Shown piece by piece: positions 10,982-27,998 of a stretch of DNA of 41,655 nt. The notes beneath the pieces were generated by a model that did not search any database, was not told where the DNA came from, and worked only from the letters and a program-made list of their open reading frames with translations. How positions within the stretch are numbered: the stretch's first letter is position 1; each line of letters begins with the position of its first letter. Both the position numbers and the translations under genes were made by a program. Source of the DNA: a virus; the IMG/VR virus record IMGVR_UViG_3300037041_000927, positions 1 through 41,655 of that record. The stretch is one strand, 5' to 3'.

Positions 10982-10997
10982 TAAAAAACAATTTATT

Positions 10998-12281: not shown

Positions 12282-13085
12282 TTACACAGTTTGTTGACCA
12301 AAAAAATACACCCTGAATTAGCACATTTATCTGATGAAGACGTAGCTAAGTTGCATAAAGGTAAAAGAACTCAAGCCAAAATTTCGAGGTTTGCCATGAG
12401 TTTTGGTGGGGGTGCATATACTTTACATATAAACCAAAATATACCTATGAAAGATGCTATTAATATTGAGAATGCTTTCAAAGAGTTGCATGAAGGAATG
12501 TATATTTGGGGTGAGGATAACTTTAATAGGGCTGTTAAAACAGGTTATATTGAAAGTGCTGATGGATGGAAATTAGCCTTACCTAGATACGATAAATACA
12601 ATTCTTTACAAGAAATGGTTAAAAGTATTACTAAGGAACAGTGGCAACAATACAAAATAGGTAAATTAGAATCTAAATCTTTACAAGAAGCTACAGAAAA
12701 GAAAGAAACTTATACTATTTTAAATAAAAAAGAGTATGAATTTTATAAAAGTAAGAGATTTGATGTTTCTTCATTTTTTAGGCTACAAGGAGAATATAAG
12801 AGATTGTCATTAAATAACCCTATACAATCTTCTGCTGCGCATATGACAAAATATGCTACTTTGCTGATATTTGACTGGATCATGGGTAATAATTATCAAA
12901 ATATAATTAAAATTGTAAATATTGTACATGATGAGGCCGTTATTGAATGCCCTGAAGAGCTAAAAGACATTGCAGTTAAAGCAGTAGAAACTTGTATGAT
13001 AAAAGCAGGTAATCATTATTTAGAAGATTTGGAAATAAAGGCAGAAGCTCATTATGGTCCTGACTGGTACAGTGCTAAAGGTTAA
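12282..13085 (+). CDS. polA: Family A DNA polymerase, exon 2
   Basis: Encodes residues 408-674. The true exon begins at TTA 12282, giving LHSLLTKKIHPEL. Motif B is RTQAKISRFAMSFGGG, with the conserved Lys; motif C is VNIVHDEAVIE, with the catalytic His-Asp-Glu. The protein ends GPDWYSAKG, a typical C-terminus for phage family A enzymes. The last 19 codons have a second, diverged copy fused to the HNH gene that follows (13832-13888). Some 3' codons are richer in G/C than neighbours. Confidence 0.93.
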   Translation, partial: LHSLLTKKIHPELAHLSDEDVAKLHKGKRTQAKISRFAMSFGGGAYTLHINQNIPMKDAINIENAFKELHEGMYIWGEDNFNRAVKTGYIESADGWKLALPRYDKYNSLQEMVKSITKEQWQQYKIGKLESKSLQEATEKKETYTILNKKEYEFYKSKRFDVSSFFRLQGEYKRLSLNNPIQSSAAHMTKYATLLIFDWIMGNNYQNIIKIVNIVHDEAVIECPEELKDIAVKAVETCMIKAGNHYLEDLEIKAEAHYGPDWYSAKG

Positions 13086-13159
13086 AATTATGACAATTAT
13101 TTTGTTTTATCAGTTCTTATTACTATATTAGTGCACATCAAATAAAAAAATAATTAAAT

Positions 13160-13891
13160 ATGAAAATTTGCAAACATTGTAATATAGAAAAAGAATTAAA
13201 AGATTTTGTAGGCTCAAAACTAACACTAGATGGTACAATAAGTACTTGTAAAACATGTTCAAGTACTATGCGTTCAAAGAAAAGATACAGTGTAACTTTA
13301 ATTGAAAAAACATGTTTTTGTTGTAAACAAACTAAGATTGCCTCGGATTTTTCAAAAAATGCCTCATTAATAGGGGGTTTACATACTTGGTGCAAAGAAT
13401 GTTGTACTAATAAGCACAAAGTGTCTGAATATGCAAAAAAATCAAATATTGTTAGAAAAGAAAAAATTAAATCTGATCCTATTTATAGAGAAAACATAAA
13501 TAACCAAAAAAGAAAGAGTAGAATAAAAAGAATTGCCTCAGTTTTATTACAGGAATGTAAACGCAGGGCTATTAAAAAAAACTTAGAGTTCAATATATCA
13601 ATTGAAGACATTATAATACCAGAAATATGCCCAATATTATTACAACCCATTATACAAGGAACTAAAGATAATTACAAGTTTTCACCTTCTATAGATAGAA
13701 TAGATAATAATAAAGGATATATAAAAGGAAATATTCAAGTAATATCAATGAAAGCTAACACTATTAAAAATTCTGCAACTATTGAGGAATTATTATTATT
13801 TGCTAAATGGGTTAATGATACATTTAAAACTGAATTAAATATTAAAGCAGATGCAGCTACAGGAGAATCTTGGTATAGTGCAAAAGGATAA
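13160..13891 (+). CDS. HNH homing endonuclease fused to polymerase tail
   Basis: 243 residues. Two zinc ribbons open the protein: CKHC...CKTC (about residues 4-33) and CFCC...CKEC (about 52-77). After a basic linker comes the HNH-like core: CPILLQPI, SPSIDRIDNNKGYIKGNIQV and AN-TIKNSATIEEL. The normal nuclease should end near WVNDTFK. Here the frame continues with ELNIKADAATGESWYSAKG, 12 of 19 residues identical to the polymerase C-terminus just upstream. So the gene uses a second copy of the polymerase end, including its stop. It lies 74 bases after the polymerase; no good promoter seen. Confidence 0.9.
   Translation: MKICKHCNIEKELKDFVGSKLTLDGTISTCKTCSSTMRSKKRYSVTLIEKTCFCCKQTKIASDFSKNASLIGGLHTWCKECCTNKHKVSEYAKKSNIVRKEKIKSDPIYRENINNQKRKSRIKRIASVLLQECKRRAIKKNLEFNISIEDIIIPEICPILLQPIIQGTKDNYKFSPSIDRIDNNKGYIKGNIQVISMKANTIKNSATIEELLLFAKWVNDTFKTELNIKADAATGESWYSAKG
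13832..13888 (+). repeat. Second copy of polymerase 3' end
   Basis: These 19 codons correspond to the last 19 codons of the polymerase (13026-13082). Twelve residues are identical and two more are conservative Asp/Glu swaps, including an unbroken WYSAKG. Most matching codons differ at the third base (for example GGT/GGA, TAC/TAT, GCT/GCA), so the copies diverged long ago or came from different phages. Confidence 0.85.
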
Positions 13892-13902
13892 TAAAATAAA
13901 TT

Positions 13903-14199
13903 ATGTCAAATGAAAAAATACAAGTAAGTAAAGTGTTTCCATTAGATGCAGATAAAAGAGGATTATGTGAAATTAGATTTGAATGTATTATAAAAATGCA
14001 TTCAAGTGGATTTCGCTCTACTAATGGAGAAATGTTAGGAGTTTCTAAAAATCTACCTCCGCAATGGTTTAAAATGCTTTCTACTATTCCTTTAGAAGCA
14101 ATAAAGTATGAAGAACCAGTAGTGTTAGGACTTAGATTAAAGCAAATGTTTTCAGATTTAGAGGAGGATATAAGGAATTATGAACAATTTAATATATAA
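13903..14199 (+). CDS. Hypothetical 98-residue protein
   Basis: Starts MSNEKIQVSKVFPLDADKRG behind AAATTATG, 11 bases after the HNH gene. It has a single Cys-Ile-Ile region and a helical C-terminus (LGLRLKQMFSDLEEDIRNYE). No family recognised. Before the HNH insertion it would have directly followed the polymerase, so it may belong to the replication operon. Confidence 0.85.
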   Translation: MSNEKIQVSKVFPLDADKRGLCEIRFECIIKMHSSGFRSTNGEMLGVSKNLPPQWFKMLSTIPLEAIKYEEPVVLGLRLKQMFSDLEEDIRNYEQFNI

Positions 14200-14202
14200 A
14201 TT

Positions 14203-14271
14203 ATGTTAATAGGAATTTTTGATTTAGTATGGGAATTATTTGAACTAATATTTAAACAATTTAATAAATAA
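14203..14271 (+). CDS. Possible 22-residue peptide
   Basis: Short frame MLIGIFDLVWELFELIFKQF-NK with the common leader AAATTATG, filling the gap between two genes (3 and 4 bases). It would be an amphipathic, membrane-seeking helix. The good start context and exact fit support it; the very short length is the reason for doubt. Confidence 0.45.
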   Translation: MLIGIFDLVWELFELIFKQFNK

Positions 14272-14275
14272 AATT

Positions 14276-14767
14276 ATGAAACAAGACACTCCTGAAGAAG
14301 AAGTATTAGGTAAGCTGAAATTTTTAATAGCTGCTGGAAATGATGCTCAAGCAATTAGAATGATTGAAGATTATGGTTTGTGGAAACAATCTTTTATGCA
14401 TGATAAAAAAATTGTTAGAGATTCATATCTTAGTGGACATTCATTATGTAGATGCGTAACTGACAATACTATAGAAGCTAAAGATTTATTTGAAGTGTGG
14501 TATAGCCTTATAAAAGAAGATAATATGGATTATGGTAATTGGAAATTAGCAACACCTCCTCACTATGAATATGATGACGAGGAAAAAGAAGAAGAAGAAA
14601 TAGTATATAAAACCCTTTATGATGCTTGGAATAGCAATGATGTGGAAGCGTTTGATAATATGTATTATGAAATAGCAGAAGAACTTAAAATTGTTCACGA
14701 AGCTTTAAAAGCAACAGATCATGGATTGAGATTTAAAGTTGAACATCTAATGAGGAAAATGAGGTAA
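14276..14767 (+). CDS. Hypothetical acidic protein
   Basis: 163 residues. The N-terminal block LGKLKFLIAAGNDAQAIRMIEDYGL resembles the block QKIKFALFCKNEAIALRLLEQY in the gene at 15884, so the two share a domain. The middle is strongly acidic (YDDEEKEEEEI). The rest is helical. Function unknown. It is two bases upstream of thyA. Confidence 0.85.
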   Translation: MKQDTPEEEVLGKLKFLIAAGNDAQAIRMIEDYGLWKQSFMHDKKIVRDSYLSGHSLCRCVTDNTIEAKDLFEVWYSLIKEDNMDYGNWKLATPPHYEYDDEEKEEEEIVYKTLYDAWNSNDVEAFDNMYYEIAEELKIVHEALKATDHGLRFKVEHLMRKMR

Positions 14768-14769
14768 GT

Positions 14770-15714
14770 ATGATAAAAGCAGATAAATATTTAAAAGAAA
14801 CAATCTCTGAAATACTTGAATTTGGAGCATTAGATGTAGATCCACGTCCTAAGTGGGGTGATGGTACACCAGCTCATACTAAATTTGTAACTCAGAAAGT
14901 TTTCGAGTACGATATTAGCAGAGGAGAATTTCCGATTAATACATTAAGAACTACTGCATTAAAAGGGGCGTTTTACGATATTGAAGCGATCTATATTGAC
15001 CAAACTACAGTTGTTAAAAATATGAATCCCTCAATATGGTCTTGGTGGAAAGATTTTGCAGATAAATCTGGAAATTTGGGCAATACATACGGCCATACTG
15101 TTGATCGCTATGATTTAATGGATAAACTTTTAGACGGTTTAGAGAAAAACCCATTTGGGCGTAGGCATAAAATAAGTCTTTGGCAAGAACAACAAGTAAT
15201 AGATGATCCAAGAGCTCTTGAACCTTGTGCGGGACTTACTATGTGGACTGTTAGAGAGAAGGATTATTCTACTTTTTATAATGTATGTTTAGATAACATA
15301 GAAAAATTAATGCCTCCGTTTGAGACACCTCTAGAAAGAGAGCGAGAAAAGTTTTTTGTAAGGTCTATTGATTTAACCTTAGTACAAAGATCAATGGATT
15401 TAGCAGTAACTAGTTCTATTAATCCTGTACAATATGTTGAATTTGGTATGGCTGTATGCAATCACTTGACTTTTAAGACAGGTATCAAACATGAGATTGG
15501 TAAGTTTTTACACTTGGTTCAAAACTGCCACATCTATGATAGACATCTTGAGGCTGCCAAAGAGCTCCTTAGTAGAGAATCTACTGGAATACAGCCTAAA
15601 ATAGAGCTTGTGTGCGAACCAAAAGACTTTTATAGTCACACAGTAGAGGATTTTAAAATTACTGGCTTAGAGGGCATAAAAGGATTAGATAGTAAATTAG
15701 AAATAGCGGTATAA
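14770..15714 (+). CDS. thyA: Thymidylate synthase (ThyA type)
   Basis: 314 residues. Converts dUMP to dTMP using methylene-tetrahydrofolate, supplying precursor for replication. The N-terminal part has GDGTPAHTKFVTQKVFEYD and INTLRTTALKGAFYDI. The active-site loop reads LEPCAGLTMW, with the catalytic Cys but Ala where most enzymes have His (PPCH). The dUMP-binding part is LTLVQRSMDLAVTSSINPVQY (Asp and Asn retained), and the folate end is LVQNCHIYDRHLEAA. Codons are less A/T-rich than neighbours (GGGGCG, GGGCGTAGG), suggesting separate acquisition. Overlaps the next gene in TAATG. Confidence 0.93.
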   Translation: MIKADKYLKETISEILEFGALDVDPRPKWGDGTPAHTKFVTQKVFEYDISRGEFPINTLRTTALKGAFYDIEAIYIDQTTVVKNMNPSIWSWWKDFADKSGNLGNTYGHTVDRYDLMDKLLDGLEKNPFGRRHKISLWQEQQVIDDPRALEPCAGLTMWTVREKDYSTFYNVCLDNIEKLMPPFETPLEREREKFFVRSIDLTLVQRSMDLAVTSSINPVQYVEFGMAVCNHLTFKTGIKHEIGKFLHLVQNCHIYDRHLEAAKELLSRESTGIQPKIELVCEPKDFYSHTVEDFKITGLEGIKGLDSKLEIAV

Positions 15715-15878
15715 TGAAGCATTTTATAAACATTTTAGTATTATTAATATTGACATTTTTCGCAATAGGTCTTGCATATCTACAAGTGAATTATGGAGAA
15801 AATTGGTATGTGGCTTTTGTTCCTTTGTGTATTTTTATGCTGTTATGGGGAATTAAATTATTTGATGATTACGAGTAA
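15714..15878 (+). CDS. Small two-span membrane protein
   Basis: 54 residues beginning MKHFINILVLLILTFFAIGLA. Two hydrophobic segments are separated by VNYGENWY; it ends acidic (LFDDYE). The start shares bases with the thyA stop. Function unknown. Confidence 0.78.
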   Translation: MKHFINILVLLILTFFAIGLAYLQVNYGENWYVAFVPLCIFMLLWGIKLFDDYE

Positions 15879-15883
15879 ATATT

Positions 15884-16453
15884 ATGGAGAAACTAGTTGA
15901 AAGTTATTGGATAAAGGATATTGGGAATCACCAATACTATTTAGTTGTAAATTTAATGAATAAGTCTACAGAAATACAACATAATCATGGTGGTATGTTT
16001 CAAGTATGGGAAGATAATGTCTCAGAGGATTTTAAACCTGAGGGATTACCAGATATGGACTACTACTCTGTATTTATGAGTAGATGTAAAGATCAAGTTT
16101 ACTTTTTATTACTGCCAACCCACGAAATTGTGAGACCTGGTAAACGGCAAGACAGGATGCAAGAAGAATTTTTTAAACATCTGCTACCAAAAAATATTAA
16201 GGAAGAAGAGGAAAGCTTAGAACAGGGAGTGCTGCAAAAAATAAAATTTGCATTATTTTGTAAAAATGAAGCTATAGCACTTAGATTACTTGAACAATAC
16301 AGATTTGATATAACAGAAGAAATGTATAGTGAGGAAGATATGAAAAAAGCTATTAAATTCGGAGCATTTGGCATGTATGGATATCAAATGGGAGAAGAAG
16401 GAAAAGAAGTTAATCAGATAAAAACATTTTTAGAAACATTTAAAAAGAAATAA
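15884..16453 (+). CDS. Hypothetical protein with YSEED block
   Basis: 189 residues. The first 85 form a compact domain with HNHGGMFQVWED and VRPGKRQDRMQEEF. The second part has QKIKFALFCKNEAIALRLLEQY, shared with the gene at 14276, and MYSEEDMKKAIKFGAFG, shared with the next gene. This mosaic layout is typical of modular phage proteins built from small repeating domains. No enzyme motif. The opposite-strand frame is a shadow. Confidence 0.87.
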   Translation: MEKLVESYWIKDIGNHQYYLVVNLMNKSTEIQHNHGGMFQVWEDNVSEDFKPEGLPDMDYYSVFMSRCKDQVYFLLLPTHEIVRPGKRQDRMQEEFFKHLLPKNIKEEEESLEQGVLQKIKFALFCKNEAIALRLLEQYRFDITEEMYSEEDMKKAIKFGAFGMYGYQMGEEGKEVNQIKTFLETFKKK

Positions 16454-16456
16454 GAT

Positions 16457-16681
16457 ATGTTAAAAGAATCTTTAAACAACTTATCAAAAGATCTGCTAGA
16501 CAGAGGTAAAGAGATAGCGAATCTTCAAAAAAATAAATGTTATAGTGAGGAAGATATGCTAATGGCTTCCAAATATGGTTATAACTACCATAAATCAACA
16601 CAGTTTCCTGAACAAGAATTTGAAGATAGTTGTATTAGAAATACTCAACAATGGTTAATAACATTAAAAAATAAAATATGA
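16457..16681 (+). CDS. Hypothetical protein with YSEED block
   Basis: 74 residues. An N-terminal helix (LKESLNNLSKDLLDRGKEIA) is followed by CYSEEDMLMASKYGYNYH, the same block as in the previous gene and, more distantly, at 5703. It ends QQWLITLKNKI. The block is common in small Bacteroidota phage proteins of unknown role. Overlaps the next start by four bases. Confidence 0.85.
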   Translation: MLKESLNNLSKDLLDRGKEIANLQKNKCYSEEDMLMASKYGYNYHKSTQFPEQEFEDSCIRNTQQWLITLKNKI

Positions 16682-17130
16682 AAATAGGGGATAAAATAGG
16701 AACTAAAATAAAGGCAAATAAACAATGCCTTATGGATGGAATAGGTCCAGCGTGTTTAACTGAAGGTCAATTTTATACTATAACTGGTGAATCTCCTTAT
16801 GAGATAGTGATTATAGATGATGGAGGAGACCCACATACATTTTATAAAGAATCTCTTTCAGATTTTTTTGATATGGAAGTTAAAGAAAGTTTATTACTTC
16901 AAGCAGAGAAAATTGTTAATGGGGATAGAAATGATCAATATGGAGATGCTAAACAAGCATTTAAAGAGTATTCTGATATTCTAAAGACAACATTTAATAT
17001 TGAGTTAACTCCTGAAGAAATCTGTAAAGTAATGATGTCAATTAAACTTGGAAGATTAAAGCATAAGTTTAAAGAAGATTCTTTATTAGATCTTATTGGA
17101 TATTCTGAAATATTGAATAGATTACAATGA
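16678..17130 (+). CDS. DUF6378-type protein with SH3-like N-terminus
   Basis: 150 residues. The N-terminal 60 residues (KIGDKIGTKIKANKQCLMDG and GQFYTITGESPYEIVIIDD) form a small barrel seen in other proteins of this phage. The C-terminal 80 match the DUF6378 pattern: AEKIVNGDRNDQYGDAKQAF, then EEICKVMMSIKLGRLKHKF and a final DSLLDLIGYSEIL. That domain is widespread in phages and has no established activity. Translationally coupled on both sides. Confidence 0.85.
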   Translation: MKIGDKIGTKIKANKQCLMDGIGPACLTEGQFYTITGESPYEIVIIDDGGDPHTFYKESLSDFFDMEVKESLLLQAEKIVNGDRNDQYGDAKQAFKEYSDILKTTFNIELTPEEICKVMMSIKLGRLKHKFKEDSLLDLIGYSEILNRLQ

Positions 17131-17252
17131 AAACAAAGCTGCAACGAATAGAAGTACTACTTAATTATTACCGCCTACGTGGTCATAATTCAGAGAAAGT
17201 AAATGAATTAAAACGTAAATTATTGAAAGATGAATCTAAAGGAAGAATTTAA
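17127..17252 (+). CDS. Hypothetical 41-residue basic peptide
   Basis: MKTKLQRIEVLLNYYRLRG... from ATG 17127, overlapping the previous stop in ATGA and the next gene by 23 bases. Helical and strongly basic. The coupling at the 5' side supports translation; the overlap with the next gene lowers confidence a little. Confidence 0.6.
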   Translation: MKTKLQRIEVLLNYYRLRGHNSEKVNELKRKLLKDESKGRI

Positions 17253-17463
17253 ATTTGCACTATGGGAAGATGCAGAATCAGGAAATGAAATAGAGGATAA
17301 ATGCGAAAAAATAGCGGAAGATTTCGCTATTCAATTTTCTACATGGATTTCTGTGAATTACTACTCTATTGGAGAAGAAAGATGGGTATCATGGAAAAAA
17401 GATATAGATATTTTATCTTCTAAAGAACTATTAAAGATTTATAAAAAAGAAAAAAACCTATGA
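17230..17463 (+). CDS. Hypothetical 77-residue protein
   Basis: MNLKEEFKFALWEDAESGNE... with a conserved-looking centre IAEDFAIQFSTWISVNYYSI and a basic helical end. A 7-bp hairpin (AATAGCG 17310-17316 with CGCTATT 17325-17331) lies in the coding region about 80 bases from the start. Four-base overlap with the next gene. No family recognised. Confidence 0.82.
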   Translation: MNLKEEFKFALWEDAESGNEIEDKCEKIAEDFAIQFSTWISVNYYSIGEERWVSWKKDIDILSSKELLKIYKKEKNL

Positions 17464-17687
17464 ATGCTAAATTAAAAAATCAATTAGAATTACTTGAAAA
17501 TGAGTTATTATCTATTCAAGAGAATATTGAAAGATTAAAAGAGTTTAAACAAGAGAGTCTTAATAGTAAATATACTCAATACCATTCACATGTTGTTGGA
17601 GAGTTTAAACACAGATTGGCAAGTTTTAAACATAGAATAACTCAAATAAATAGATATTTATCAACTAGTAATTTAACAGAAGAATGA
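17460..17687 (+). CDS. Hypothetical coiled-coil protein
   Basis: 75 residues, almost entirely helical: LKNQLELLENELLSIQENIERL has regular heptads, followed by a His-containing linker and RLASFKHRITQINRYL. Probably a dimeric helical hairpin. Four-base overlaps with both neighbours. Confidence 0.83.
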   Translation: MNAKLKNQLELLENELLSIQENIERLKEFKQESLNSKYTQYHSHVVGEFKHRLASFKHRITQINRYLSTSNLTEE

Positions 17688-17836
17688 GTGTAGGTGATAG
17701 AGTGACATTTAGAAATATAAATAGTATTGAAATGGTTGTATCAGAAAATATTGATATTAAACATGTTCAAGTAATGTATTTTGATAGTAATAATATTTTA
17801 AGGAAAGAAATAATTTTAAAAAGTTTATTAAGATGA
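17684..17836 (+). CDS. Hypothetical small SH3-like protein
   Basis: 50 residues starting MSVGDRVTFRNINSIEMVV, the pattern of short barrels that begin VGDxV. It ends in a basic KEIILKSLLR. Four-base overlaps on both sides support expression. Similar openings occur in the genes at 6287, 6463, 16678 and 33115, so this fold is reused in the phage. Confidence 0.75.
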   Translation: MSVGDRVTFRNINSIEMVVSENIDIKHVQVMYFDSNNILRKEIILKSLLR

Positions 17837-17997
17837 ATAATAACACATTAATTATATATTATATATTTGTATTAGCTGTATTAGCACTTACAGGTTATGC
17901 TGTATTTGTTTTAAATGCTTCAGGTTGGTGGTTCTGTTTAGCAAGTATAGTTATGGGTGCAACACCTGAAAGTAATAATGATAAACATGGATTGTGA
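17833..17997 (+). CDS. Small two-span membrane protein
   Basis: 54 residues beginning MNNNTLIIYYIFVLAVLALT. The hydrophobic region covers residues 5-42 with a Gly/Trp break (ASGWWFCLASIV), giving two spans. The polar C-terminus is PESNNDKHGL. Overlaps the next gene by 11 bases. Confidence 0.75.
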   Translation: MNNNTLIIYYIFVLAVLALTGYAVFVLNASGWWFCLASIVMGATPESNNDKHGL

Positions 17998-18175
17998 TTG
18001 GGAATACGAGTTTTTAAAGGATGCTATTTTTCTTGAAGAAAGAAATCAACAAATGATAAATGATTATTATCAATGGGAAGAAGAAAAAGCTATTAAAGAA
18101 ATGAAACCTGCAACAATAGAAGTTGTAATTAAAAAACCAAAATATGAAACTAACAATAACCCCCTTCCATTTTGA
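17987..18175 (+). CDS. Hypothetical 62-residue acidic protein
   Basis: Start placed at ATG 17987 (MDCDWEYEFLKDAIFLEERN); a longer reading from 17957 would overlap the membrane gene much more. Helical, acidic first half and a polar proline-rich end (KKPKYETNNNPLPF). It overlaps the following gene by 32 bases, the longest overlap in this cluster. No family recognised. Confidence 0.75.
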   Translation: MDCDWEYEFLKDAIFLEERNQQMINDYYQWEEEKAIKEMKPATIEVVIKKPKYETNNNPLPF

Positions 18176-18767
18176 AGAATTAATTAAAAAAAGTTATTCT
18201 TTAGATCAAATTTATTTACTAAAATTACTTGAACAAGAGTTTGATGTTATTCCTTTATGTAATTCTAGTGTAAAAATATCTGCTATATACCAATCTTTAA
18301 TTAGAAAAGGGCTTATATCTTCTGAAGATAAGCTAACAACTGAAGGTAAAGAACTTTTATTATTTATTGATAGTAAGGCAACATCTAAATTAATTAGAAG
18401 AAAACCTGCTACAACAGAATTTACTGAATGGTGGTCCAGCTATCCTGGCACTGATATTTTTACACATAGTGGTGTAAAGTTTAGTGGAGGAAGATCTTTA
18501 AGACAAGGAAAGGATGATTGTAGATTAAAATTTGATGCTATTATTAATGAAGGAGAATATACTGCAAAACAGTTAACTGATGCTCTAAAGTTTGAGGTTC
18601 TTCAGAAGAAACAAGAATCTGTAAAACAAAGAACAAACAAATTAACTTATATGCAGAATAGTTTAACTTATTTAAATCAAAAAAGTTTTGAACCCTTTAT
18701 AGATTTAATTGATTCTGGAGAAGAATTAAAAGAAAGCATAAGTGTAACAGGAAGTACAGATATTTAA
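18144..18767 (+). CDS. Putative replication-initiation or helicase-loader protein
   Basis: 207 residues. The N-terminal 80 fit a winged helix (AIYQSLIRKGLISSEDKLTTEGKELL). The C-terminal part has EFTEWWSSYPGTD, SGGRSLRQGKDDCRLKFD and NKLTYMQNSLTYLNQKSFEPF, a pattern I associate with Bacteroidota phage proteins lying next to DnaB helicases. The helicase gene follows 300 bases on, which fits a loader or initiator. No AAA motif, so it would act as an adaptor rather than an ATPase. Function is inference. Confidence 0.7.
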   Translation: MKLTITPFHFEELIKKSYSLDQIYLLKLLEQEFDVIPLCNSSVKISAIYQSLIRKGLISSEDKLTTEGKELLLFIDSKATSKLIRRKPATTEFTEWWSSYPGTDIFTHSGVKFSGGRSLRQGKDDCRLKFDAIINEGEYTAKQLTDALKFEVLQKKQESVKQRTNKLTYMQNSLTYLNQKSFEPFIDLIDSGEELKESISVTGSTDI

Positions 18768-18778
18768 AAACTATAAAA

Positions 18779-18934
18779 ATGATAACAGCAAAAGAAATAG
18801 AAGAAGTTTATAACAAAGAAAGAGAAGAGGATGAACAATATTATACATTTAATATTATTCCAAAAGATGAAGTAAAAAAAATTATTAATCAATTAATCAA
18901 AAGTAAAAATGGAACTGACAAAAAGAGAACATAA
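18779..18934 (+). CDS. Hypothetical 51-residue protein
   Basis: MITAKEIEEVYNKEREEDEQYY... with an acidic helix then a basic end (NQLIKSKNGTDKKRT). Good A-rich leader (CTATAAAA-ATG). It overlaps the next gene by 26 bases. No family recognised. Confidence 0.65.
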   Translation: MITAKEIEEVYNKEREEDEQYYTFNIIPKDEVKKIINQLIKSKNGTDKKRT

Positions 18935-20128: not shown

Positions 20129-20130
20129 TA

Positions 20131-20161: not shown

Positions 20162-20176
20162 TAAAAATTAATTATC

Positions 20177-20875
20177 ATGAAAAAAATAAAAATCGAAGAC
20201 TATGTAGGATTGAAGTATGGTAGATTAACTATTCTTAGAGAAGGTAATTCTATCAAATATTCTAAAACTATAATGAAAAAAGTATTTTGTAAATGTGATT
20301 GTGGGAATGAAAAAGAAATAGATTTAAATTCTATAAAAAGAGGAAAATCTAAATCTTGTGGTTGTTTAAATAAAGAGCTTTCAAAAAAAACTAGTACAAC
20401 ACATGGTCTAGCAATGCTTTCTACAGGAGTGAAACACCTTGATTACTGTATTTGGTTAAAAATGAAATCAAGGTGTTTAAACTCTAATGATAAATCTTAT
20501 AAAAATTATGGTGGTAGAGGCATTAAAGTTTGTGAGGATTGGCAAAAATCTTTTGCCTTATTTATAAATGATTTAGGTTGGAGGCCTAATAATATGTATT
20601 CTTTAGAACGAATAGACTATAATAAAGACTATTGTCCTGAAAATTGTAAATGGATACTTAAATCAGAACAATCTAAGAATTGTAGAAGAGTAAAACTTAT
20701 TACTTACAATGGTAAAGAACAGTGTTTAACTGATTTATGTAAACTTTTAGGTTTAGTATATTCTACTATGAGGCATAGAGTTTATGATTTAGGTATCCCA
20801 TTTGAAGAGGCTATAAAATATCCAAAGCATTACAAATTTAAAAATAAACAAAATAATGACAAAAGAAGTATATAA
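20177..20875 (+). CDS. HNH homing endonuclease (free-standing)
   Basis: 232 residues. An N-terminal zinc region has CDCGNEKEI and SKSCGCLNKE. The HNH-type core follows with HGLAMLSTG, YCIWLKMKSRCLNSNDKSY, NYGGRGIKVCEDW and the signature YSLERIDYNKDYCPENCKWI. A C-terminal DNA-binding extension (TYNGKEQCLTDLCKLLGLVYSTMRHRV) looks like a NUMOD-type helix-turn-helix. It sits between the helicase and the NAD genes, with its own promoter. I found no duplicated gene end here. It overlaps the next gene by 20 bases. Confidence 0.92.
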   Translation: MKKIKIEDYVGLKYGRLTILREGNSIKYSKTIMKKVFCKCDCGNEKEIDLNSIKRGKSKSCGCLNKELSKKTSTTHGLAMLSTGVKHLDYCIWLKMKSRCLNSNDKSYKNYGGRGIKVCEDWQKSFALFINDLGWRPNNMYSLERIDYNKDYCPENCKWILKSEQSKNCRRVKLITYNGKEQCLTDLCKLLGLVYSTMRHRVYDLGIPFEEAIKYPKHYKFKNKQNNDKRSI

Positions 20876-21056: not shown

Positions 21057-21077
21057 ACTGTAAAAACAAAAAAAAAT

Positions 21078-22733
21078 ATGAAAAATATGAATCCTTTATT
21101 ATTAAGTGATGGATACAAAACTGCTCACCATATAATGTATCCTGAAAAAACTACATTAGTTTATTCTAATTTTACACCTAGGAGCAATAAATATGCTCCT
21201 AAAGGTTGTGATAATTTAGTATCATTTGGGCAGCAAATGATGATGATGCAATTGCATGAATTATTTCAAAATAACTTTTTCAAAATGCCTAAAGATGAAG
21301 TTTGTCAAGAAATGAAAAAAGAATTAGAATTATATCTAGGAATGCCTTATGATATTAGTCATTTTGAAGCTCTTCACAATCTGGGGTATTTACCTATTTG
21401 TGTAAAGATAATTGCAGAAGGTACATTAGTTCCAATGAAGGTTCCTGTTCTTACAGTCTACAACACACATCCAGATTTCTATTGGTTAACAAACTATTTA
21501 GAAACAATCATTTCAAATCTATTATGGAAACCAATGACAAGTGCAACTATTGCACATACTTATAAAAAAGTATTGACTAAATGGCAGCTGAAAACTGATG
21601 TTAAAAATGCAGGGTTTATTGACTGGCAAGGCCATGATTTCTCTATGAGAGGTATGGATAGTATCGATGCTGTTATTAGCTCAGGATTAGGTCATCTTAC
21701 ATCTTTTATGGGTACAGATAGTCTTCCAGTTATACATGGTGCACGTAAGTATTATTTTGCAGAAGGGCAAGTGGGTGGTTCTGTACCTGCCACTGAACAT
21801 TCAGTAATGTGTGCAGGAGGTAAAGAAGATGAAACAGAAACATTTAAAAGACTCTTATCTTTATATCCTACAGGTATACTTTCAGTAGTTTCTGATACTT
21901 GGGATTTGTGGAAAGTATGTACAGAACATATTATCACTATCAAAAAAGAAATATTAGCAAGAGATGGTAAATTGGTAATTAGACCTGATTCTGGTGATCC
22001 TATAGATATTATTTGTGGACTAAATATTAAAGAATGCAAATCTTTAGAAGATGCTAAAGACGACTTTGAAGAAGAATTATATACTAATCAAGTTCATGGG
22101 GAAAGTGAATTTACAATTAGTGAAACCAGAACTGTAAAAGTGACCGATAAATATTATGAGTTAACTGCTGATGTTGATTGGAACAGGTATGATAAACAGT
22201 ATTATTTTGTTGAAGAAATTTCTTTTATTATAAAAGAAAAAGAAGTTACCCCTGCAACAAAAGGTGTAATAGAGCTTCTTTGGGATGTATTTGGAGGAAC
22301 TATTAATGAGCAAGGGTATAAAGTTTTAGATCCACATATTGGAGCCATATATGGTGATAGTATTACTATAGAAAGGGCTGATGAGATCTGTAGAAGATTA
22401 GAAGCTAAAGGATTTGCAAGTACAAACATTGTTCTTGGTATTGGTTCTTTTACTTATCAATATAATACTAGAGATACATTTGGGTTTGCTATGAAAGCTA
22501 CTTATGTTGAAGTGGATGGTGTAGGACAAGAAATATTTAAAGACCCTATTACAGATGATGGTGTTAAAAAATCAGCTAAAGGGTTATTAAAAGTAAATGA
22601 AGATCTTACATTATCAGATCAAGTTACTTATGTAGAACAAACAGAAGGTATGTTACAAGTATTATACCTAGATGGTGTATTTGAAAACTTAACAAATTTC
22701 CAAACAATTAAAGAAAAACTAAATGAGCTATGA
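21078..22733 (+). CDS. nadV: NadV-like nicotinamide transferase (candidate Namat)
   Basis: 551 residues. It belongs to the nicotinamide phosphoribosyltransferase family, which joins nicotinamide to a pyrophosphorylated ribose. Family residues are present: HDFSMRGM, GTDSLP (Asp), VPATEHSVM (the catalytic His), LSVVSDTWDLW (Asp) and LVIRPDSGDPIDI. A region of about 100 residues after this (ECKSLEDAKDDFEEEL to EKEVTPATKG) is an insertion typical of the long forms. Next to a Prs-like gene with 11 bases overlap, it may instead use ADP-ribose pyrophosphate and make NAD+ directly (NARP1). A hairpin (21179-21201) lies near the start. Confidence 0.92.
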   Translation: MKNMNPLLLSDGYKTAHHIMYPEKTTLVYSNFTPRSNKYAPKGCDNLVSFGQQMMMMQLHELFQNNFFKMPKDEVCQEMKKELELYLGMPYDISHFEALHNLGYLPICVKIIAEGTLVPMKVPVLTVYNTHPDFYWLTNYLETIISNLLWKPMTSATIAHTYKKVLTKWQLKTDVKNAGFIDWQGHDFSMRGMDSIDAVISSGLGHLTSFMGTDSLPVIHGARKYYFAEGQVGGSVPATEHSVMCAGGKEDETETFKRLLSLYPTGILSVVSDTWDLWKVCTEHIITIKKEILARDGKLVIRPDSGDPIDIICGLNIKECKSLEDAKDDFEEELYTNQVHGESEFTISETRTVKVTDKYYELTADVDWNRYDKQYYFVEEISFIIKEKEVTPATKGVIELLWDVFGGTINEQGYKVLDPHIGAIYGDSITIERADEICRRLEAKGFASTNIVLGIGSFTYQYNTRDTFGFAMKATYVEVDGVGQEIFKDPITDDGVKKSAKGLLKVNEDLTLSDQVTYVEQTEGMLQVLYLDGVFENLTNFQTIKEKLNEL

Positions 22734-23529
22734 AATTAAAATGTATCCTGATGGTACACAATATGTAAAAGTGCATGAATTTTTAGATGAGTTAACTTTT
22801 AATATTAATTCTTATAAAGATCTTTGGACATTGAACCAAATAAAAGATGTATATAATCATAATAATAAAAAAGTTGGTTTGTATATTCCATGTTTGTTAG
22901 ATGCTCAAGCAGATAGACGTTTTAATCCTGGTGAAAATTCAGGATTAAAATTAATATGTGATTTTATAAATTCAATGAATTTTGAGTATGTAAAAGTATT
23001 TCATCCACATAATCCTGAAGTTGTAGAAGCTTTGTTATATAGCGTAGATATTATTGATAATTCTTTATTTATAGGTAAGGTTTTATCTAACATAGATACT
23101 ACAAATACAACATTATTTTCTACAGATGCAGGTGGATTTAAACCTCTTATGAAACTTTGTGATAAAATAAAGTGGGAAGGAGAAGTGTATGGAGCATCTA
23201 AATCTAGAAAATATGAAAATAGTAAGTCTGTACTAGTTCAAAATATAGATAAAAAAGATTTTAATGGTAATGATATTCTTATTATAGATGATATTTGTGT
23301 TTATGGTGGAACATTTATTGGTTTAGCTAAAATGCTAAAAGAACGTAATTGTGGAAAATTATATTTAGCTATAAGTCATTTAACTGTAGAAAGACCAAAA
23401 AAAGAATTGTTTGATTTATTTGATATAGTTTTTACCACATCAAGTAAAAATATAAACTATACAGTTGAATCTACAGGACATGATAAAATATTTGGAATTG
23501 TTCCAACTAACTTAACTATTATCAAATGA
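22723..23529 (+). CDS. prs: Prs-like pyrophosphokinase (candidate Adps)
   Basis: 268 residues, shorter than cellular PRPP synthetases (about 315). Family marks: PCLLDAQADRRF, FHPHNPEVVEAL (in place of the VDLH block), SKSRKYENS and the phosphoribosyl loop DILIIDDICVYGGTF. Such enzymes move pyrophosphate from ATP to a ribose 5-phosphate; in phage NARP1 the homologue acts on ADP-ribose. The overlap with the nadV-like gene suggests the two are made together. A 10-bp hairpin (22921-22930 with 22940-22949) lies inside. Its stop overlaps the start of a broken helicase fragment. Confidence 0.9.
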   Translation: MSYEIKMYPDGTQYVKVHEFLDELTFNINSYKDLWTLNQIKDVYNHNNKKVGLYIPCLLDAQADRRFNPGENSGLKLICDFINSMNFEYVKVFHPHNPEVVEALLYSVDIIDNSLFIGKVLSNIDTTNTTLFSTDAGGFKPLMKLCDKIKWEGEVYGASKSRKYENSKSVLVQNIDKKDFNGNDILIIDDICVYGGTFIGLAKMLKERNCGKLYLAISHLTVERPKKELFDLFDIVFTTSSKNINYTVESTGHDKIFGIVPTNLTIIK

Positions 23530-23624
23530 CAATTAGAGATAAAAGACAATCAGAATTTGCAAAAATTTGGTTATTAAAAGGGAATGTTATATCTTTGTCA
23601 TATGAAAATAGATATAGCCCTTAA
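23526..23624 (+). pseudogene. Abandoned 5' end of SF2 helicase gene
   Basis: A frame opens in the ATGA overlap with the Prs gene and reads TIRDKRQSEFAKIWLL, then drifts and stops at 23622. The intact helicase at 24389 starts with SIRDLRQKEFAEVWLK at the matching place: 10 of 16 residues identical. So this is the original start of the helicase gene, separated from the rest by the GIY-YIG gene. Its codons are A/T-rich like the rest of the phage. Confidence 0.85.
23566..23597 (+). promoter_or_regulatory. Host-type promoter for GIY-YIG gene 1
   Basis: TTTG (23566-23569) and TATCTTTG (23590-23597) with a 20-base spacer, exact Bacteroidota boxes. The upstream TTTG is made from helicase codons (ATT TGG). 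The nuclease ATG is only five bases after the second box, so the transcript should be leaderless or nearly so. Confidence 0.75.
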
Positions 23625-24396
23625 AAAAGTGACTGGTATATACAAAATTACCAACACTATAAACAATAAGTCATATGTAGGAAGTTCTGTTGATGTATAT
23701 CAAAGAGGATGTATGTATAAGCACTTAATTAAAAGAAAAAAATTACATAACAAACACCTACAGTCATCTGTAGAGAAATATGGATATGATAATTTTACAT
23801 TTGAACTTTTAAATAAGTGTAAAGAAAATACATCTGTTTTTGATTTACACCAATTAGAACAATTTTATATAAACAAAATTAATCCTGAGTACAACAAAAG
23901 AACTGTTGTAGACACAAATCATTTACTTTCACATTCTCAAGAAACTAAAGATAAAATATCTAAGAGTTTAAAAGAATCTTTTAAGAATGGTAGCAAAGTT
24001 ATCAATCGTATACAAGAACATAATATAAAAGTTAGTTTATTTGATCTATTTGGAAATCACATTCAAGATTTTCCAGGTTTAGCTCATTGTGCTGAATTTG
24101 TAGGTGTAAAATATACAAGTATAACATATGCTATAAAAAGTAAAAGAAGAAGAGTTAAGAAGTATATAGTTTTACGTACAGAGGAATCTAATTTAGTAAA
24201 AGATTTTCTAAACTTACCTAAAATCAATTATGCTAAAAAGGTTGTAGTTTTAGACATAGTTACAAATAATACACATCAATTTATTAATTGTAAATTATGT
24301 GCAGAATTTTTAGAATGCAAACCAACAACTGTAAAAAAATGCTATGAGAATGGTAAAATTTGGAAAAATAAATACAAAATAATAAATTATGAGTAA
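23602..24396 (+). CDS. GIY-YIG homing endonuclease 1
   Basis: 264 residues from ATG 23602; the in-frame ATG at 23584 lies inside the promoter and is rejected. The N-terminal nuclease domain has GIYKITNTINNKSYVGSS (about 12-29), then RGCMYKHL, and YGYDNFTFELL with the catalytic Glu region (LEQFYINKINPEYN). NUMOD-type DNA-binding segments follow (GLAHCAEFVGVKYTSITYAI and a similar one near the end). It sits at the start of the SF2 helicase gene, and its stop overlaps the new helicase ATG by eight bases. It would cut helicase genes lacking the cassette. Confidence 0.92.
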   Translation: MKIDIALKKVTGIYKITNTINNKSYVGSSVDVYQRGCMYKHLIKRKKLHNKHLQSSVEKYGYDNFTFELLNKCKENTSVFDLHQLEQFYINKINPEYNKRTVVDTNHLLSHSQETKDKISKSLKESFKNGSKVINRIQEHNIKVSLFDLFGNHIQDFPGLAHCAEFVGVKYTSITYAIKSKRRRVKKYIVLRTEESNLVKDFLNLPKINYAKKVVVLDIVTNNTHQFINCKLCAEFLECKPTTVKKCYENGKIWKNKYKIINYE

Positions 24397-25468
24397 AAGT
24401 ATCAGGGATCTTCGTCAAAAAGAGTTTGCGGAAGTCTGGCTTAAAAGTAAACATGGAATACTTATGCTTGCTCCCAGGTTTGGAAAAATCAGAACAAGTA
24501 TAATTATTCTAAAAGAATTAAAACCAAAAAACATTCTTATATGTTATCCAGATAAGAAAATTGAAAAATCTTGGAAAGAAGATTTTGATGAACTTAAATA
24601 CGATGATAGTAATGTTACATATACAACCCATTTATCAGTTAAGAAATATGTAAAGAATTATTATGACATTGTAATTATTGACGAAATTCATCTTCTTTCA
24701 GAAAACCAAATAGAAGCATATAAAGAGTTATTTAAAACTAATGATGTTATATTAGGTTTAACAGGAACATTGTCAGAATGGACAGAAAAAACACTTAGTG
24801 AAGAGTTGTATATGGATGTAGTAGCTACTTACCCAATTGAAAAAGCAATTGAAGAAGGAGTTATTGTAGATTATAAAATAACTGTTGTAACTGTTCCTTT
24901 AGATAATGTAAAACTAAATGATTATAAGGGTAAAAAGAAGACTGAAAAAAAACATTTTGATGGTATATCTTGGGTGATTAATAAACTTCAATATTCTGGT
25001 GGAGATGCAATGTTTATGCGTTTAGCCAGAATGAGAGTTATTCAATCATCTTTAGCTAAAACTAATGCTACTAAGGCATTATTGGCTAAACATAAAAATG
25101 AAAGAGTTTTAGTTTTTTGTGGAACCACTGCTATAGCAGATAATCTTGGAATTCCTTCCTATCATAGTAAAAGTTCTGAAAAAGAATTATTTCAACAATT
25201 TGCAGAAGGAAAAGGAAATCATTTAGCTGTTGTAAAGATTGGTAATTCAGGGATAACATATAAACCTTTAGACAAAATTATAATAAACTACTTTGATAGT
25301 AATGCAGAAAATTTGGCTCAGAAGATAAATCGAGCAATGGCTATGGAATATAACACTCCAGATAAGAAAGCACACATCTATATTGTTAGTTCTAATGAGC
25401 CTATAGAACTTAAATGGCTAAAAAGCGCATTGAGTTTTTTCAACAAAGATAAGGTATCATATATTTGA
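24389..25468 (+). CDS. SF2 helicase with replaced 5' end
   Basis: 359 residues. DEAD-like helicase related to UvsW-type enzymes used in recombination and fork repair. Motif I reads APRFGKIRTS, with Ile where GKT/GKS is usual; motif II is IIDEIHLL; motif III LTGTLSEW; C-terminal domain has VLVFCGTT and LAQKINRAMAM as a weak motif VI. The first 35 or so codons use G/C-rich choices (AGG, CGT, GCG, GTC, CCC) unlike the rest, and duplicate the fragment at 23526. The start was therefore supplied with the GIY-YIG gene. Confidence 0.88.
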   Translation: MSKSIRDLRQKEFAEVWLKSKHGILMLAPRFGKIRTSIIILKELKPKNILICYPDKKIEKSWKEDFDELKYDDSNVTYTTHLSVKKYVKNYYDIVIIDEIHLLSENQIEAYKELFKTNDVILGLTGTLSEWTEKTLSEELYMDVVATYPIEKAIEEGVIVDYKITVVTVPLDNVKLNDYKGKKKTEKKHFDGISWVINKLQYSGGDAMFMRLARMRVIQSSLAKTNATKALLAKHKNERVLVFCGTTAIADNLGIPSYHSKSSEKELFQQFAEGKGNHLAVVKIGNSGITYKPLDKIIINYFDSNAENLAQKINRAMAMEYNTPDKKAHIYIVSSNEPIELKWLKSALSFFNKDKVSYI

Positions 25469-25524
25469 TTATTACCTTAAAATTTCGTAAATTTAAACAA
25501 TAATAATAACTAAATTAATTAAAA

Positions 25525-26196
25525 ATGAGTTCAAAGCTAGTAGGAATCGTAGGACAGACAGGATCTGGAAAATCAACAAGTATTAAACATTTAAATCCAG
25601 AAGAGACTTATGTCATCAATGTAGCCAAAAAAGAGTTACCATTTAAAGGGAGTGAAAAGCTGTATAATACAGAAGCTAAAAATTACAAAGAAGTAGATGA
25701 TGCTAATGAAATTTCAAGATTATTGAAAACTATTTCAGAAAAAGCACCACACATTAAAAACATTATTATAGAAGATTCAAACTATATTATGGGATTTAAT
25801 ATGGTGGCTAAAGCTACAGAAGTTGGGTTTACTAAATTTAGCATTATGGCTAAAGACATGGTAGATTTGTTTAGAACAGCTAGACAATTAAGAGATAATA
25901 TCACTGTATTCTATCTTACACATCCAGAAACTATTGAAGATAGTGGAGAGATTATTGGGTACAAAATTAAAACAGCAGGAAAATTGATTGATAATCAAGT
26001 TTTGTTGGAAGGATTATTAACTGTATGTTTGTACACTCTTGTAGAAGAGAAAAAAGATGGTACAGCTGAATATAGTTTTGTAACAAATCGCTTTAAGAAG
26101 TATCCAGCAAAAAGTCCTGATGGTATGTTTACGGAAATTAAAATTCCTAACAACTTACAAAATGTAGTAGATACAATAACAGAATATTATAAATAA
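25525..26196 (+). CDS. Sak4-like RecA-fold ATPase
   Basis: 223 residues. Walker A is GIVGQTGSGKSTS (about 7-19), Walker B IKNIIIEDSNYIMG, followed by a sensor-like VFYLTHPET. Length and layout match the phage AAA/RecA-like proteins of the Sak4 group that help single-strand annealing together with the phage SSB. The SSB gene is next downstream, as in other phages, which supports the assignment. Single-gene leader of 56 bases, with no promoter I trust. Confidence 0.82.
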   Translation: MSSKLVGIVGQTGSGKSTSIKHLNPEETYVINVAKKELPFKGSEKLYNTEAKNYKEVDDANEISRLLKTISEKAPHIKNIIIEDSNYIMGFNMVAKATEVGFTKFSIMAKDMVDLFRTARQLRDNITVFYLTHPETIEDSGEIIGYKIKTAGKLIDNQVLLEGLLTVCLYTLVEEKKDGTAEYSFVTNRFKKYPAKSPDGMFTEIKIPNNLQNVVDTITEYYK

Positions 26197-26237
26197 TAAA
26201 TAACAAATAAATAAATTAACAATTAAAATTAAAAATT

Positions 26238-26270
26238 ATGAGTGGAATTGGTGGAACTAAAATTTGGTAG
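26238..26270 (+). pseudogene. Abandoned 5' end of SSB gene
   Basis: ATG 26238 opens MSGIGGTKIW then TAG. The SSB gene at 27102 opens MSNSIGGIKREV. The shared MS, IGG and K, the matching A-rich leader and the position immediately before a nuclease gene show this is the old start of the SSB gene. It is short, so alone it would be weak evidence, but it repeats the pattern at the helicase. Confidence 0.7.
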
Positions 26271-26294
26271 TTTAAATTATATTTATTAAATTTG
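26263..26294 (+). promoter_or_regulatory. Host-type promoter for GIY-YIG gene 2
   Basis: TTTG (26263-26266) and TAAATTTG (26287-26294), spacer 20 bases. The TTTG again comes from target-gene codons (ATT TGG). ATG 26298 follows the second box after three bases, predicting a leaderless message. Confidence 0.75.
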
Positions 26295-26297
26295 TAC

Positions 26298-27089
26298 ATG
26301 AAAAAATTAGAAAAAAATTATTACGTGTATATTTATTTAAATTTATTAAATCCTGGTATGTTTAAATATCAGGATTTAGAGTTTGAATATGAACCAATTT
26401 ATATAGGCAAAGGAATTGATAGTAGAAGTCATAATCATTTAACAGCTTGTCTTAATATTAATGATAAAAAGGGCTATAAAAGATTGTTTTATCAAAAACT
26501 TAGAAAAATTATTAAATCAGGATCTACACCTAAAATTATTATATATAAAAATGATCTTTCAGAAAAAGAAGCTTTTGATTTAGAAATAAGTTTAATTTCA
26601 AAAATTAAAAGAAGAATTACAAAAGAAGGACCATTATGTAATAATTCAAAAGGTGGTGAAGGTGCTTCAGGAACTATTTCACCAAGATATTCAATTTGTG
26701 TTTATAATAATGAGGGTAAAATTTTATCTGTCGAAACAAGTGCAAAAAATTGCTCAATAAAATATAAAGTACCTTTAATAGCTATTTATAGGCACGTTAA
26801 TGGTACAAGAAAATTACCTTCAAATAATTGTAGGTTTAGAAAAAAAAGTGATAATATTAAAAAATTATGTAATAATGAGGAAATAGTAATAAATAAAAAA
26901 GGAAAGCACAGCAAAATAAGTACTTTAAGTAAAATAGTTTATCAGTATGATAAAGAAGGAAATTTTATTAAAAGTTATCCTAATTCTAATATAGCTTCAC
27001 TAGAATTAGGTATAAATAGAAGTGCAATACAAAACAATTTAACAAATAGAAGCAAAACATGTAACAATTATATATTTAAAAATAAATAA
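26298..27089 (+). CDS. GIY-YIG homing endonuclease 2
   Basis: 263 residues from ATG 26298. The nuclease domain reads YYVYIYLNLLNPG, YEPIYIGKGIDSRSHNHL, with the catalytic Glu region in EKEAFDLEISLISKI and a GGEGASG turn. Two NUMOD-type helix-turn-helix segments follow (ETSAKNCSIKYKVPLIAIYRHV and YPNSNIASLELGINRSAIQN). It resembles phage SegF-like enzymes in the first block. It occupies the 5' end of the SSB gene and ends 12 bases before the intact SSB start. Confidence 0.92.
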   Translation: MKKLEKNYYVYIYLNLLNPGMFKYQDLEFEYEPIYIGKGIDSRSHNHLTACLNINDKKGYKRLFYQKLRKIIKSGSTPKIIIYKNDLSEKEAFDLEISLISKIKRRITKEGPLCNNSKGGEGASGTISPRYSICVYNNEGKILSVETSAKNCSIKYKVPLIAIYRHVNGTRKLPSNNCRFRKKSDNIKKLCNNEEIVINKKGKHSKISTLSKIVYQYDKEGNFIKSYPNSNIASLELGINRSAIQNNLTNRSKTCNNYIFKNK

Positions 27090-27101
27090 AAAATAAAGAT
27101 T

Positions 27102-27998
27102 ATGAGTAATAGTATTGGTGGAATTAAAAGAGAAGTTAGTAATAATGAAGGATTCTCTAAGCAAGTTGGATTATTTGAGTGTAATGTAGTTGCTATTAAC
27201 CCAACTATTGAAGAATATAAATCTAAATTAGGAATTGAATTAAAAGAAGATTCTAAAGCTGTTGAATATACTGGAAAAAGTAAAGATGATAATAATACAT
27301 TAAGAATTGACTTCTGGTTGAAAGATGTAAAAAATCCTGAATTACAACCATTCAAAGTTACTTTCTTCTTGGAAGATAAAGAAAGAGAAAATTTAGCTAA
27401 AACTAAATATCAGTATATTAATAGTGTAGGTATGTGTTCTTGGGGAGAATCTGAAAATGATCTTGCTCCTTGGTTTAAAGGAGATGCTAACAATCCTCGT
27501 GATGTAAGAGTTGCACATTCTGGAGAAGAAGAATTATATGATGTTCTTCGTACATGGTTAAGTAAATTAGATTATAGACATGCTGACACTACTCTTACAT
27601 TAGATTGGAAGAAACTAATGAAAGGAAATGTTTCTGATCTTAGAAGCCAAATTGATGGAGAATGGTGTGATACATTTGTAGCATTAGCTACAGTTACATC
27701 TAAAGAGCGTGAAGGAGAAGTAAAAGAATATCAAACTGTCTTTAATAAAGGATTTTTACCAACATACACTTTAAAACAATTTAGAGTTGTGGATTATAAT
27801 GATTCTTCTGTAGTTAGAAAACTATCTGAAAAAGCATCTAAAGATCTTAAACCTCATGAAAGATTTGTACTTAAAGTGACTGGAGAATATGGTTGTAAAG
27901 ATTATTATACTCTAAAAGAATTAGAAGAATACAATCCTGGAGAAAATTTAGTATCAACTAATGATGCTAAAATAGATGACGAGGATGGTGATTACTAA
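27102..27998 (+). CDS. Putative phage single-stranded DNA-binding protein
   Basis: 298 residues. The call rests on context and shape: a beta-rich body with aromatics (FKVTFFLEDKE, YQYINSVGMCSWGES, LTLDWKKLMKG), a strongly acidic C-terminal tail (DDEDGDY) like other SSBs that recruit partners, and location between a Sak4-like ATPase and the primase. I see no canonical OB-fold signature, so it could be another DNA-binding replication protein. The first codons duplicate a broken fragment 850 bases upstream. A strong terminator follows. Confidence 0.75.
   Translation: MSNSIGGIKREVSNNEGFSKQVGLFECNVVAINPTIEEYKSKLGIELKEDSKAVEYTGKSKDDNNTLRIDFWLKDVKNPELQPFKVTFFLEDKERENLAKTKYQYINSVGMCSWGESENDLAPWFKGDANNPRDVRVAHSGEEELYDVLRTWLSKLDYRHADTTLTLDWKKLMKGNVSDLRSQIDGEWCDTFVALATVTSKEREGEVKEYQTVFNKGFLPTYTLKQFRVVDYNDSSVVRKLSEKASKDLKPHERFVLKVTGEYGCKDYYTLKELEEYNPGENLVSTNDAKIDDEDGDY

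Follow-up and report, generated by a model that had tools for sequence, protein, structure and literature searches.

A homing nuclease that lives in or beside a conserved gene ordinarily depends on an intron, an intein or a gap where it does no harm, and a spare gene end may offer it another solution. In Torulaspora and Lachancea yeasts, WHO elements substitute a diverged, resistance-conferring end for the 3′ end of FBA1 and leave the old end behind as a homology fragment; allele-specific cleavage has been shown for a WHO protein (PMC7282813). In fungal mitochondria, mORFs have replaced the C-terminal ends of atp6 in Allomyces and of atp6, atp9, cox2 and nad3 in Glomus (PMC3630166), and duplications of cob and atp6 are known from Endoconidiophora (PMC6279837). 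Here we examine the 41,655-base virus record IMGVR_UViG_3300037041_000927 (the window, taken at its full length), kin of the crAss-like phages, in which three endonuclease genes adjoin duplicated, diverged ends of the genes for DNA polymerase, a helicase and the single-stranded DNA-binding protein (SSB). With a probability of roughly 0.83, these cassettes are end-replacing homing elements. An earlier note on this DNA had taken the arrangement, as a recurring system, to be without a known description, a view that fails because yeast WHO elements and fungal mORFs, both acting at 3′ ends, had already been published as replacing gene ends; the phage setting, the 5′ version, the several targets and the involvement of three nuclease families appear to be new, and our literature search, whose coverage of subscription journals was incomplete, found no description of end replacement in phages.

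Like WHO elements, the phage cassettes have a free-standing nuclease next to a gene of full length, with part of the native end surviving on the opposite side of the nuclease and a diverged end joined to the gene; a chimeric history and the lack of splicing are further points in common. WHO proteins, however, are intein/HO-related with zinc fingers, belong to yeast nuclei, sit mainly at the FBA1 3′ end and build clusters, whereas the phage cassettes employ GIY-YIG, HNH and LAGLIDADG nucleases at the 3′ and 5′ ends of seven target families and are known from sequence. Descent from the WHO/HO family was rejected, the window nucleases being GIY-YIG with NUMOD1 or HNH/endonuclease VII-like and not intein-derived with a zinc finger, and the phage cases would thus be WHO-like in their working but not by descent. 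In mORFs, as in the phages, a LAGLIDADG or GIY-YIG open reading frame (ORF) brings a foreign C-terminal end and the native end stays downstream, matching uninvaded relatives; the mORF cases covered are organellar 3′ ends only, with no phage or 5′ case. An mORF-type 3′ arrangement occurs here at PolA, DnaB and primase; being found in phages and accompanied by 5′ cases, however, the cassettes fall outside the mORF class. The seg and mob genes of phage T4 encode GIY-YIG or HNH nucleases beside replication genes and home without introns, co-converting their flanks, but differ in cutting hundreds to thousands of bp away (PMC2988022). According to the available part of one account, recombination boundaries in phages are marked by homing endonuclease genes, of more than one class, that lie next to essential genes (PMC10448857); that part covers free-standing, intron and intein cases and contains no end replacement with a leftover native end. 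Home-and-rescue gene drives direct a nuclease at an essential gene, whose destroyed part is put back by the element in altered sequence (PMC7968924); such drives are engineered CRISPR systems in insects, whereas the phage elements are natural and their altered end was apparently borrowed from a diverged allele.

All of the cassette features in the window lie on the forward strand. At the helicase, an abandoned native 5′ end (MTIRDKRQSEFAKIWLLKG; 23526-23582), which matches the canonical starts of uninvaded relatives and whose ATG and the stop of the preceding gene overlap in the sequence ATGA, precedes a free-standing GIY-YIG homing endonuclease gene (23602-24396; GIY-YIG and NUMOD1 by Pfam, PF01541 and PF07453; homing endonuclease by PHROG). 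The SNF2/ResIII-type helicase gene (24389-25468; Pfam) begins with MSKSIRDLRQKEFAEVWLKSK at 24389, overlapping the nuclease gene by 8 nt, and comparison with the uninvaded locus L001, the closest relative found to the window, suggests that its first ~100 nt are a nuclease-linked replacement end, nucleotide identity being 67-70% in nt 4-104 and 85% in the helicase body. At the SSB gene, an abandoned native 5′ end reading MSGIGGTK (26238-26261), then IW and a stop, corresponds to the canonical start of relatives (for example MSGIGGTKRE in L082) and is followed by a free-standing GIY-YIG (LEM-3-like) endonuclease gene with NUMOD1 (26298-27089; Pfam) and, after a gap of 12 nt, by the SSB gene with its nuclease-linked replacement start, MSNSIGGIKREV (27102-27998), which has no Pfam match and was recognized from gene order and alignment to the crAss-like gene. 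Each of the two GIY-YIG genes combines the catalytic domain with a NUMOD module, as expected of predicted GIY-YIG homing endonucleases.

The polymerase site is arranged the other way round. Here the 3′ exon of a family A DNA polymerase (12291-13085; PF00476) ends in what comparison with relatives indicates to be a replacement end, EIKAEAHYGPDWYSAKG plus stop (the last 54 nt, 13032-13085), and the HNH/endonuclease VII-like endonuclease gene that follows (13160-13891) is fused in frame to an abandoned native-like polymerase 3′ end, NIKADAATGESWYSAKG plus stop (13838-13891), which is nearer to relatives than the end joined to the polymerase body. The HNH gene has no Pfam match and was assigned through PHROGs to endonuclease, endonuclease VII and HNH families (best E 1e-30). 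The three nuclease-associated pairs of diverged ends proposed in the earlier note, including the 8-base overlap and 12-base gap at the two 5′ sites, were all found at these positions, and its nuclease assignments, two GIY-YIG and one HNH, agree with Pfam and PHROGs, respectively. Breakpoints at the three sites are approximate because no relative above 85% identity was found, and the essential nature of the target genes is assumed from their functions.

To compare the pairs with background, gene ends were scanned against their own flanks over 1.8 Mb (unbiased scan; reverse-strand null with a 99.9% quantile of 45 and a maximum of 47 in 2608) and against pooled family ends over 330 distinct gene ends (null maximum 42 in 330). 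The polymerase pair scored 63 and 76 in the two scans and the helicase pair 58 and 72, all above the respective null maxima, in keeping with the expectation that these two exceed chance. Matches of the unbiased scan at L146, L148, L153, L155, L158 and L162 were set aside as low complexity or structural paralogues.

Relatives were then compared for their resemblance to either copy. A DNA search of a phage collection found no close relatives of the window, only short matches; an SSB search matched 195 contigs, the larger of ~110 kb, and 80 loci were taken for comparison. Nearly all 80 carry DnaB, helicase, Sak4 and SSB and lack a nuclease gene ahead of SSB. The uninvaded helicase starts resemble MTIRDKRQKEFADVWLKHGKFGI and, among 45 distinct starts compared as DNA, 37 were nearer the abandoned fragment and six nearer the nuclease-linked start. 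SSB starts in relatives are of the type MSxIGGxKRE, as in the abandoned fragment, to which 70 of 74 uninvaded starts were nearer and none nearer the new start. The prediction that gene ends in relatives would match the abandoned 5′ fragments is thereby upheld, and the reverse pattern did not prevail at either gene. For the polymerase, a scan with a single protein gave no relatives and an alignment built with two relatives gave 29; among 21 distinct ends, 15 better matched the nuclease-fused end and none the body-joined end, with six ties. Because relatives match the nuclease-fused end better, it is read as native-like, and the gene body with its replacement end is probably followed by the nuclease and then by the native end, which mirrors the 5′ cases. 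The second 3′ end fused in frame to the nuclease was thus correctly seen, with the roles of the two ends swapped. One relative, L115/L141, has a homologous HNH gene behind its polymerase, and there the tail is absent.

In Kehishuvirus, empty and occupied helicase sites form a nearly isogenic pair. On either flank of the site, crAss001 (empty) and PhiCrAssBcn14 (occupied) share 97-100% identity, over 1.3 kb with the cassette skipped. PhiCrAssBcn14 presents, in order, an old helicase start, a decayed, truncated GIY-YIG gene and a diverged start joined to a crAss001-like body; the old start matches crAss001 at 65/66 nt and the new start at 43/66, and the old start breaks at LPTS, just before the ATP-binding loop FGKS. 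In cr112_1, a full-length nuclease gene (YP_010111448.1) occupies the same place, with the fragment matching crAss001 at 63/66 nt and the new start at 35/66. The cassette is present in the separate records PhiCrAssBcn14 and PhiCrAssBcn18 and also in cr112_1, whereas the empty site of crAss001 holds one helicase end and not two. In ‘tikkala’, an HNH gene precedes the helicase and the duplication is absent.

That single end at the empty site bears on the proposal that the nuclease genes lie within group I introns or inteins, with the second gene end serving as a downstream exon. The polymerase does have a separate intron whose core is common to other phages, and introns and inteins can be abundant in crAss-like phages (PMC7886860). 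The target genes are nevertheless complete and uninterrupted with their joined ends, so that the two copies are alternatives and not consecutive exons, and there was no Rfam group I match at the cassettes, a search that also missed the real polymerase intron. Intein identity was rejected, as the cassettes consist of separate frames with their own starts and contain no intein domain by Pfam. We regard the intron or intein explanation as exceedingly improbable, and the contention that no intron is needed is supported by both the uninterrupted genes and the empty site.

Joint movement of nuclease and gene end is visible in two sets of relatives. The DnaB bodies of L053, L061 and L113 are ~85% identical, whilst the last ~95 nt of DnaB together with the GIY-YIG gene are mostly 98-100% identical, and between L053 and L061/L113 identity drops again past the nuclease; this shared block amid divergent bodies indicates that the DnaB end and the nuclease travel together and gives the clearest sign of mobility. 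Likewise, L103 and L067 have in common a LAGLIDADG cassette at the start of the helicase gene, mostly 90-100% identical between them against mostly 72-93% for the helicase body, and both loci carry the same frameshifted fragment remnant. Transfer of end and nuclease separately from the gene body was thus seen in relatives and not in the window phage. Replacement and native fragment share 56-77% nucleotide identity over the measured cases, and in the Sak4 pair of L110, 13 of 13 residues are identical with 9 of 13 codons synonymously changed, so the replacement end appears to keep the protein end usable while its DNA differs. Such divergence is far too great for a recent tandem partial duplication into which nucleases later settled, even if duplication and insertion would give a similar map; of the two copies, moreover, one resembles the relatives' ends, whereas the nuclease carries the other along when it moves. 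Assembly artefacts might also be suspected, as most relatives are metagenome assemblies, but the Kehishuvirus case recurs in several separate records and seven gene families are affected. Both duplication first and artefact are very unlikely.

Beyond PolA 3′, helicase 5′ and SSB 5′, duplicated ends were found at DnaB 3′, primase 3′, Sak4 5′ and dUTPase 5′. The DnaB cases comprise one type in L053, L061 and L113 and a second in L092/L094; those of primase are L081, with a LAGLIDADG nuclease, and L097, with a NUMOD1 protein resembling GIY-YIG. Sak4 is represented by L110, dUTPase by Kolpuevirus frurule, and helicase 5′ cases with LAGLIDADG by L103 and relatives. In all, the arrangement recurs in seven gene families and about eleven events, with three nuclease families (GIY-YIG, HNH and LAGLIDADG) at the end-replaced genes, and the notion of a recurring cassette of nuclease plus diverged end is confirmed in relatives, the Kehishuvirus pair included. 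Against the five nearest uninvaded relatives, the DnaB fragments of L061/L113 matched at 75-82/87 nt and the joined end at 60-64, and the primase fragment of L081 matched at 56-60/66 nt and its joined end at 38-43; for Sak4, 52 of 62 relatives were nearer the fragment. Overall, uninvaded ends correspond cleanly to the fragments for Kehishuvirus and for most DnaB, primase and SSB cases; the correspondence holds in the majority for the window helicase and is weaker for PolA and Sak4.

A native fragment was detected at 10 of the 24 distinct nuclease-adjacent ends and at none of 306 nuclease-free ends, after removal of three detection artefacts (L052 and L064 at contig edges, L090 with a match inside the helicase). 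The phages compared are related, so these counts do not represent independent events. The contrast bears on the proposal that these are ordinary free-standing homing endonucleases between genes, with the duplicated ends as co-conversion scars of imprecise recombination that play no protecting or enabling role. The intergenic T4 seg/mob nucleases with their distant cutting (PMC2988022) would fit such scars, as would the 14 fragment-free nuclease-adjacent ends and the nuclease-free occurrence of a DnaB replacement end in L095. Opposed to it are the restriction of fragments to nuclease-bearing ends, the junction of fragment and replacement end, which in the examples resolved best (Kehishuvirus and DnaB) falls at roughly one and the same codon, the travel of the replacement end with the nuclease in two independent sets, and phage T4 itself, where 139 kb holding most of its free-standing nucleases contained no duplicated gene ends. 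We judge the scar explanation unlikely, yet less remote than either of the alternatives above, and favour end-replacing homing elements.

Several observations weigh against end replacement, or at least against its tidiest form. The claim that the pairs lie beyond chance does not extend to SSB, whose pair of eight residues scores 41, within the tail of the family-end null (maximum 42); its fragment is just eight codons long and is credible mainly as the canonical family start at the expected place. Relatives of the window polymerase are only ~44-57% identical, too far for a breakpoint. At 14 of the 24 nuclease-adjacent ends there is no detectable fragment, which means that fragments are lost with age or that part of the nucleases are no more than neighbouring genes. 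In the DnaB case of L094, the near relative L084 is nearer the joined end (73 vs 61), as is the near relative L089 in the primase case of L097, and for Sak4 the nearest relative, L082, is slightly nearer the joined end (32 vs 28 of 39 nt). Helicase ends like the nuclease-linked type occur without such a nuclease in L088, L089, L060 and L112, and relatives of this kind blur the distinction between native and replaced ends. Finally, the DnaB end of the L053/L061/L113 cassette is present in L095 (3060-3160) without nuclease or fragment, representing either a donor lineage or a scar after nuclease loss. Because that end occurs nuclease-free, the replacement need not be purpose-made; it looks like a diverged allele, and of the diverged, recoded end first envisaged the divergence stands and the recoding appears not to. 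The simplest origin would be capture of the diverged end of another lineage's gene together with a neighbouring nuclease.

No recognizable fragment accompanied the SSB nucleases of L110 and L104, the helicase HNH of L084 or a 183-residue GIY-YIG before Sak4. A related HNH gene lies behind DnaB in the window (20177-20875) and before the helicase in L084 (1660-2334), with no detectable fragment at either. In L088, L091, L092 and L112, a 227-residue protein is encoded before the helicase, directly adjoining in three, the L112 copy having no Pfam match; the helicase start in phages with this protein resembles the nuclease-linked KHGI type, and the protein might mark a lost nuclease. At L112 7764-8900, the last ~20 codons of a uracil-DNA glycosylase-like gene recur in diverged form ~370 nt downstream, and the intervening 101-residue ORF does not resemble a nuclease; this is possibly a decayed case.

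Taken as homing elements, the cassettes could work as follows. The mobile unit would be the endonuclease gene plus a complete diverged copy of the adjoining short gene end. In a co-infecting phage whose native gene is intact, the endonuclease would cut close to one end of that gene, and donor-templated repair, to judge from the boundaries, would copy the nuclease and the diverged end into the break. The recipient body would thereby be joined in frame to the donor end, and the recipient's own end would stay behind as a fragment beyond the nuclease gene, possibly serving as a second homology arm with the body as the other; this fragment would then decay, as it appears to have done in L103 and L067. 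At a 3′ target the gene body with its new end is predicted to come first, then the nuclease and then the old end; at a 5′ target the old start is predicted to come first, followed by the nuclease and by the new start with the body, and the stop codon of the nuclease gene usually overlaps that new start. Since the chimeric gene is uninterrupted, protection from re-cutting would have to come from the altered sequence of the end. Overlap of nuclease stop and new start was observed in the window helicase, cr112_1, L103, L110 Sak4 and frurule, as well as in L084, which lacks a fragment, and suggests translational coupling in the 5′ cases.

Expression of the nucleases may be independent. A box of the form TANNTTTG, resembling the Bacteroidota -7 promoter box, suggests that each nuclease brings its own promoter; at the helicase site it reads TATCTTTG (23590-23597), just upstream of the nuclease start, and at the SSB site TAAATTTG (26287-26294), upstream of the nuclease start. 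Four of the window's five nuclease genes (10998, 20177, 23602 and 26298) have the box 11-24 nt upstream of them; of the other genes tested, only two (34745 and 40350) have it within 60 nt upstream.

On balance, and with appreciable reservation, we lean towards seeing end-replacing elements as a widespread, repeatedly evolved third homing class in phages, with three unrelated nuclease families and a mirror 5′ form with translational coupling, that drives chimeric evolution of crAss-like replication genes. Several of the phage cases fall at or near the conserved ATP-binding loop (helicase and Sak4). Such elements would explain mosaic replication-gene ends and misannotated gene starts in crAss-like phages, and the near-isogenic empty and occupied phages make cutting, resistance and biased inheritance directly testable.

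Further features of the window were recorded. The polymerase (9710-13085) is interrupted by a group I-type intron at ~10934-12290 with a LAGLIDADG ORF (10998-11969); the intron core (~12003-12143) is widely spread, with 83-89% identity to sequences of Flavobacterium phage FPSV-D18 and Yersinia phage phiR1-37, and Rfam missed the intron at E 0.1. This family A polymerase was present in two of 49 related records (G001-G049), a low occurrence that agrees with reports of polymerase switching among crAss-like phages (PMC7886860). Outside the replication genes, ORFs 5152-5703 and 6463-6822 share a similar 26-residue C-terminal segment (PKELELTLEQIAEKFGVSVESIKIKK and PIKRKLTMQEIAEKFGEDVDNIEIEK) and are probably paralogues, and a tRNA gene was matched by Rfam at 5101-5199 (43.9 bits).

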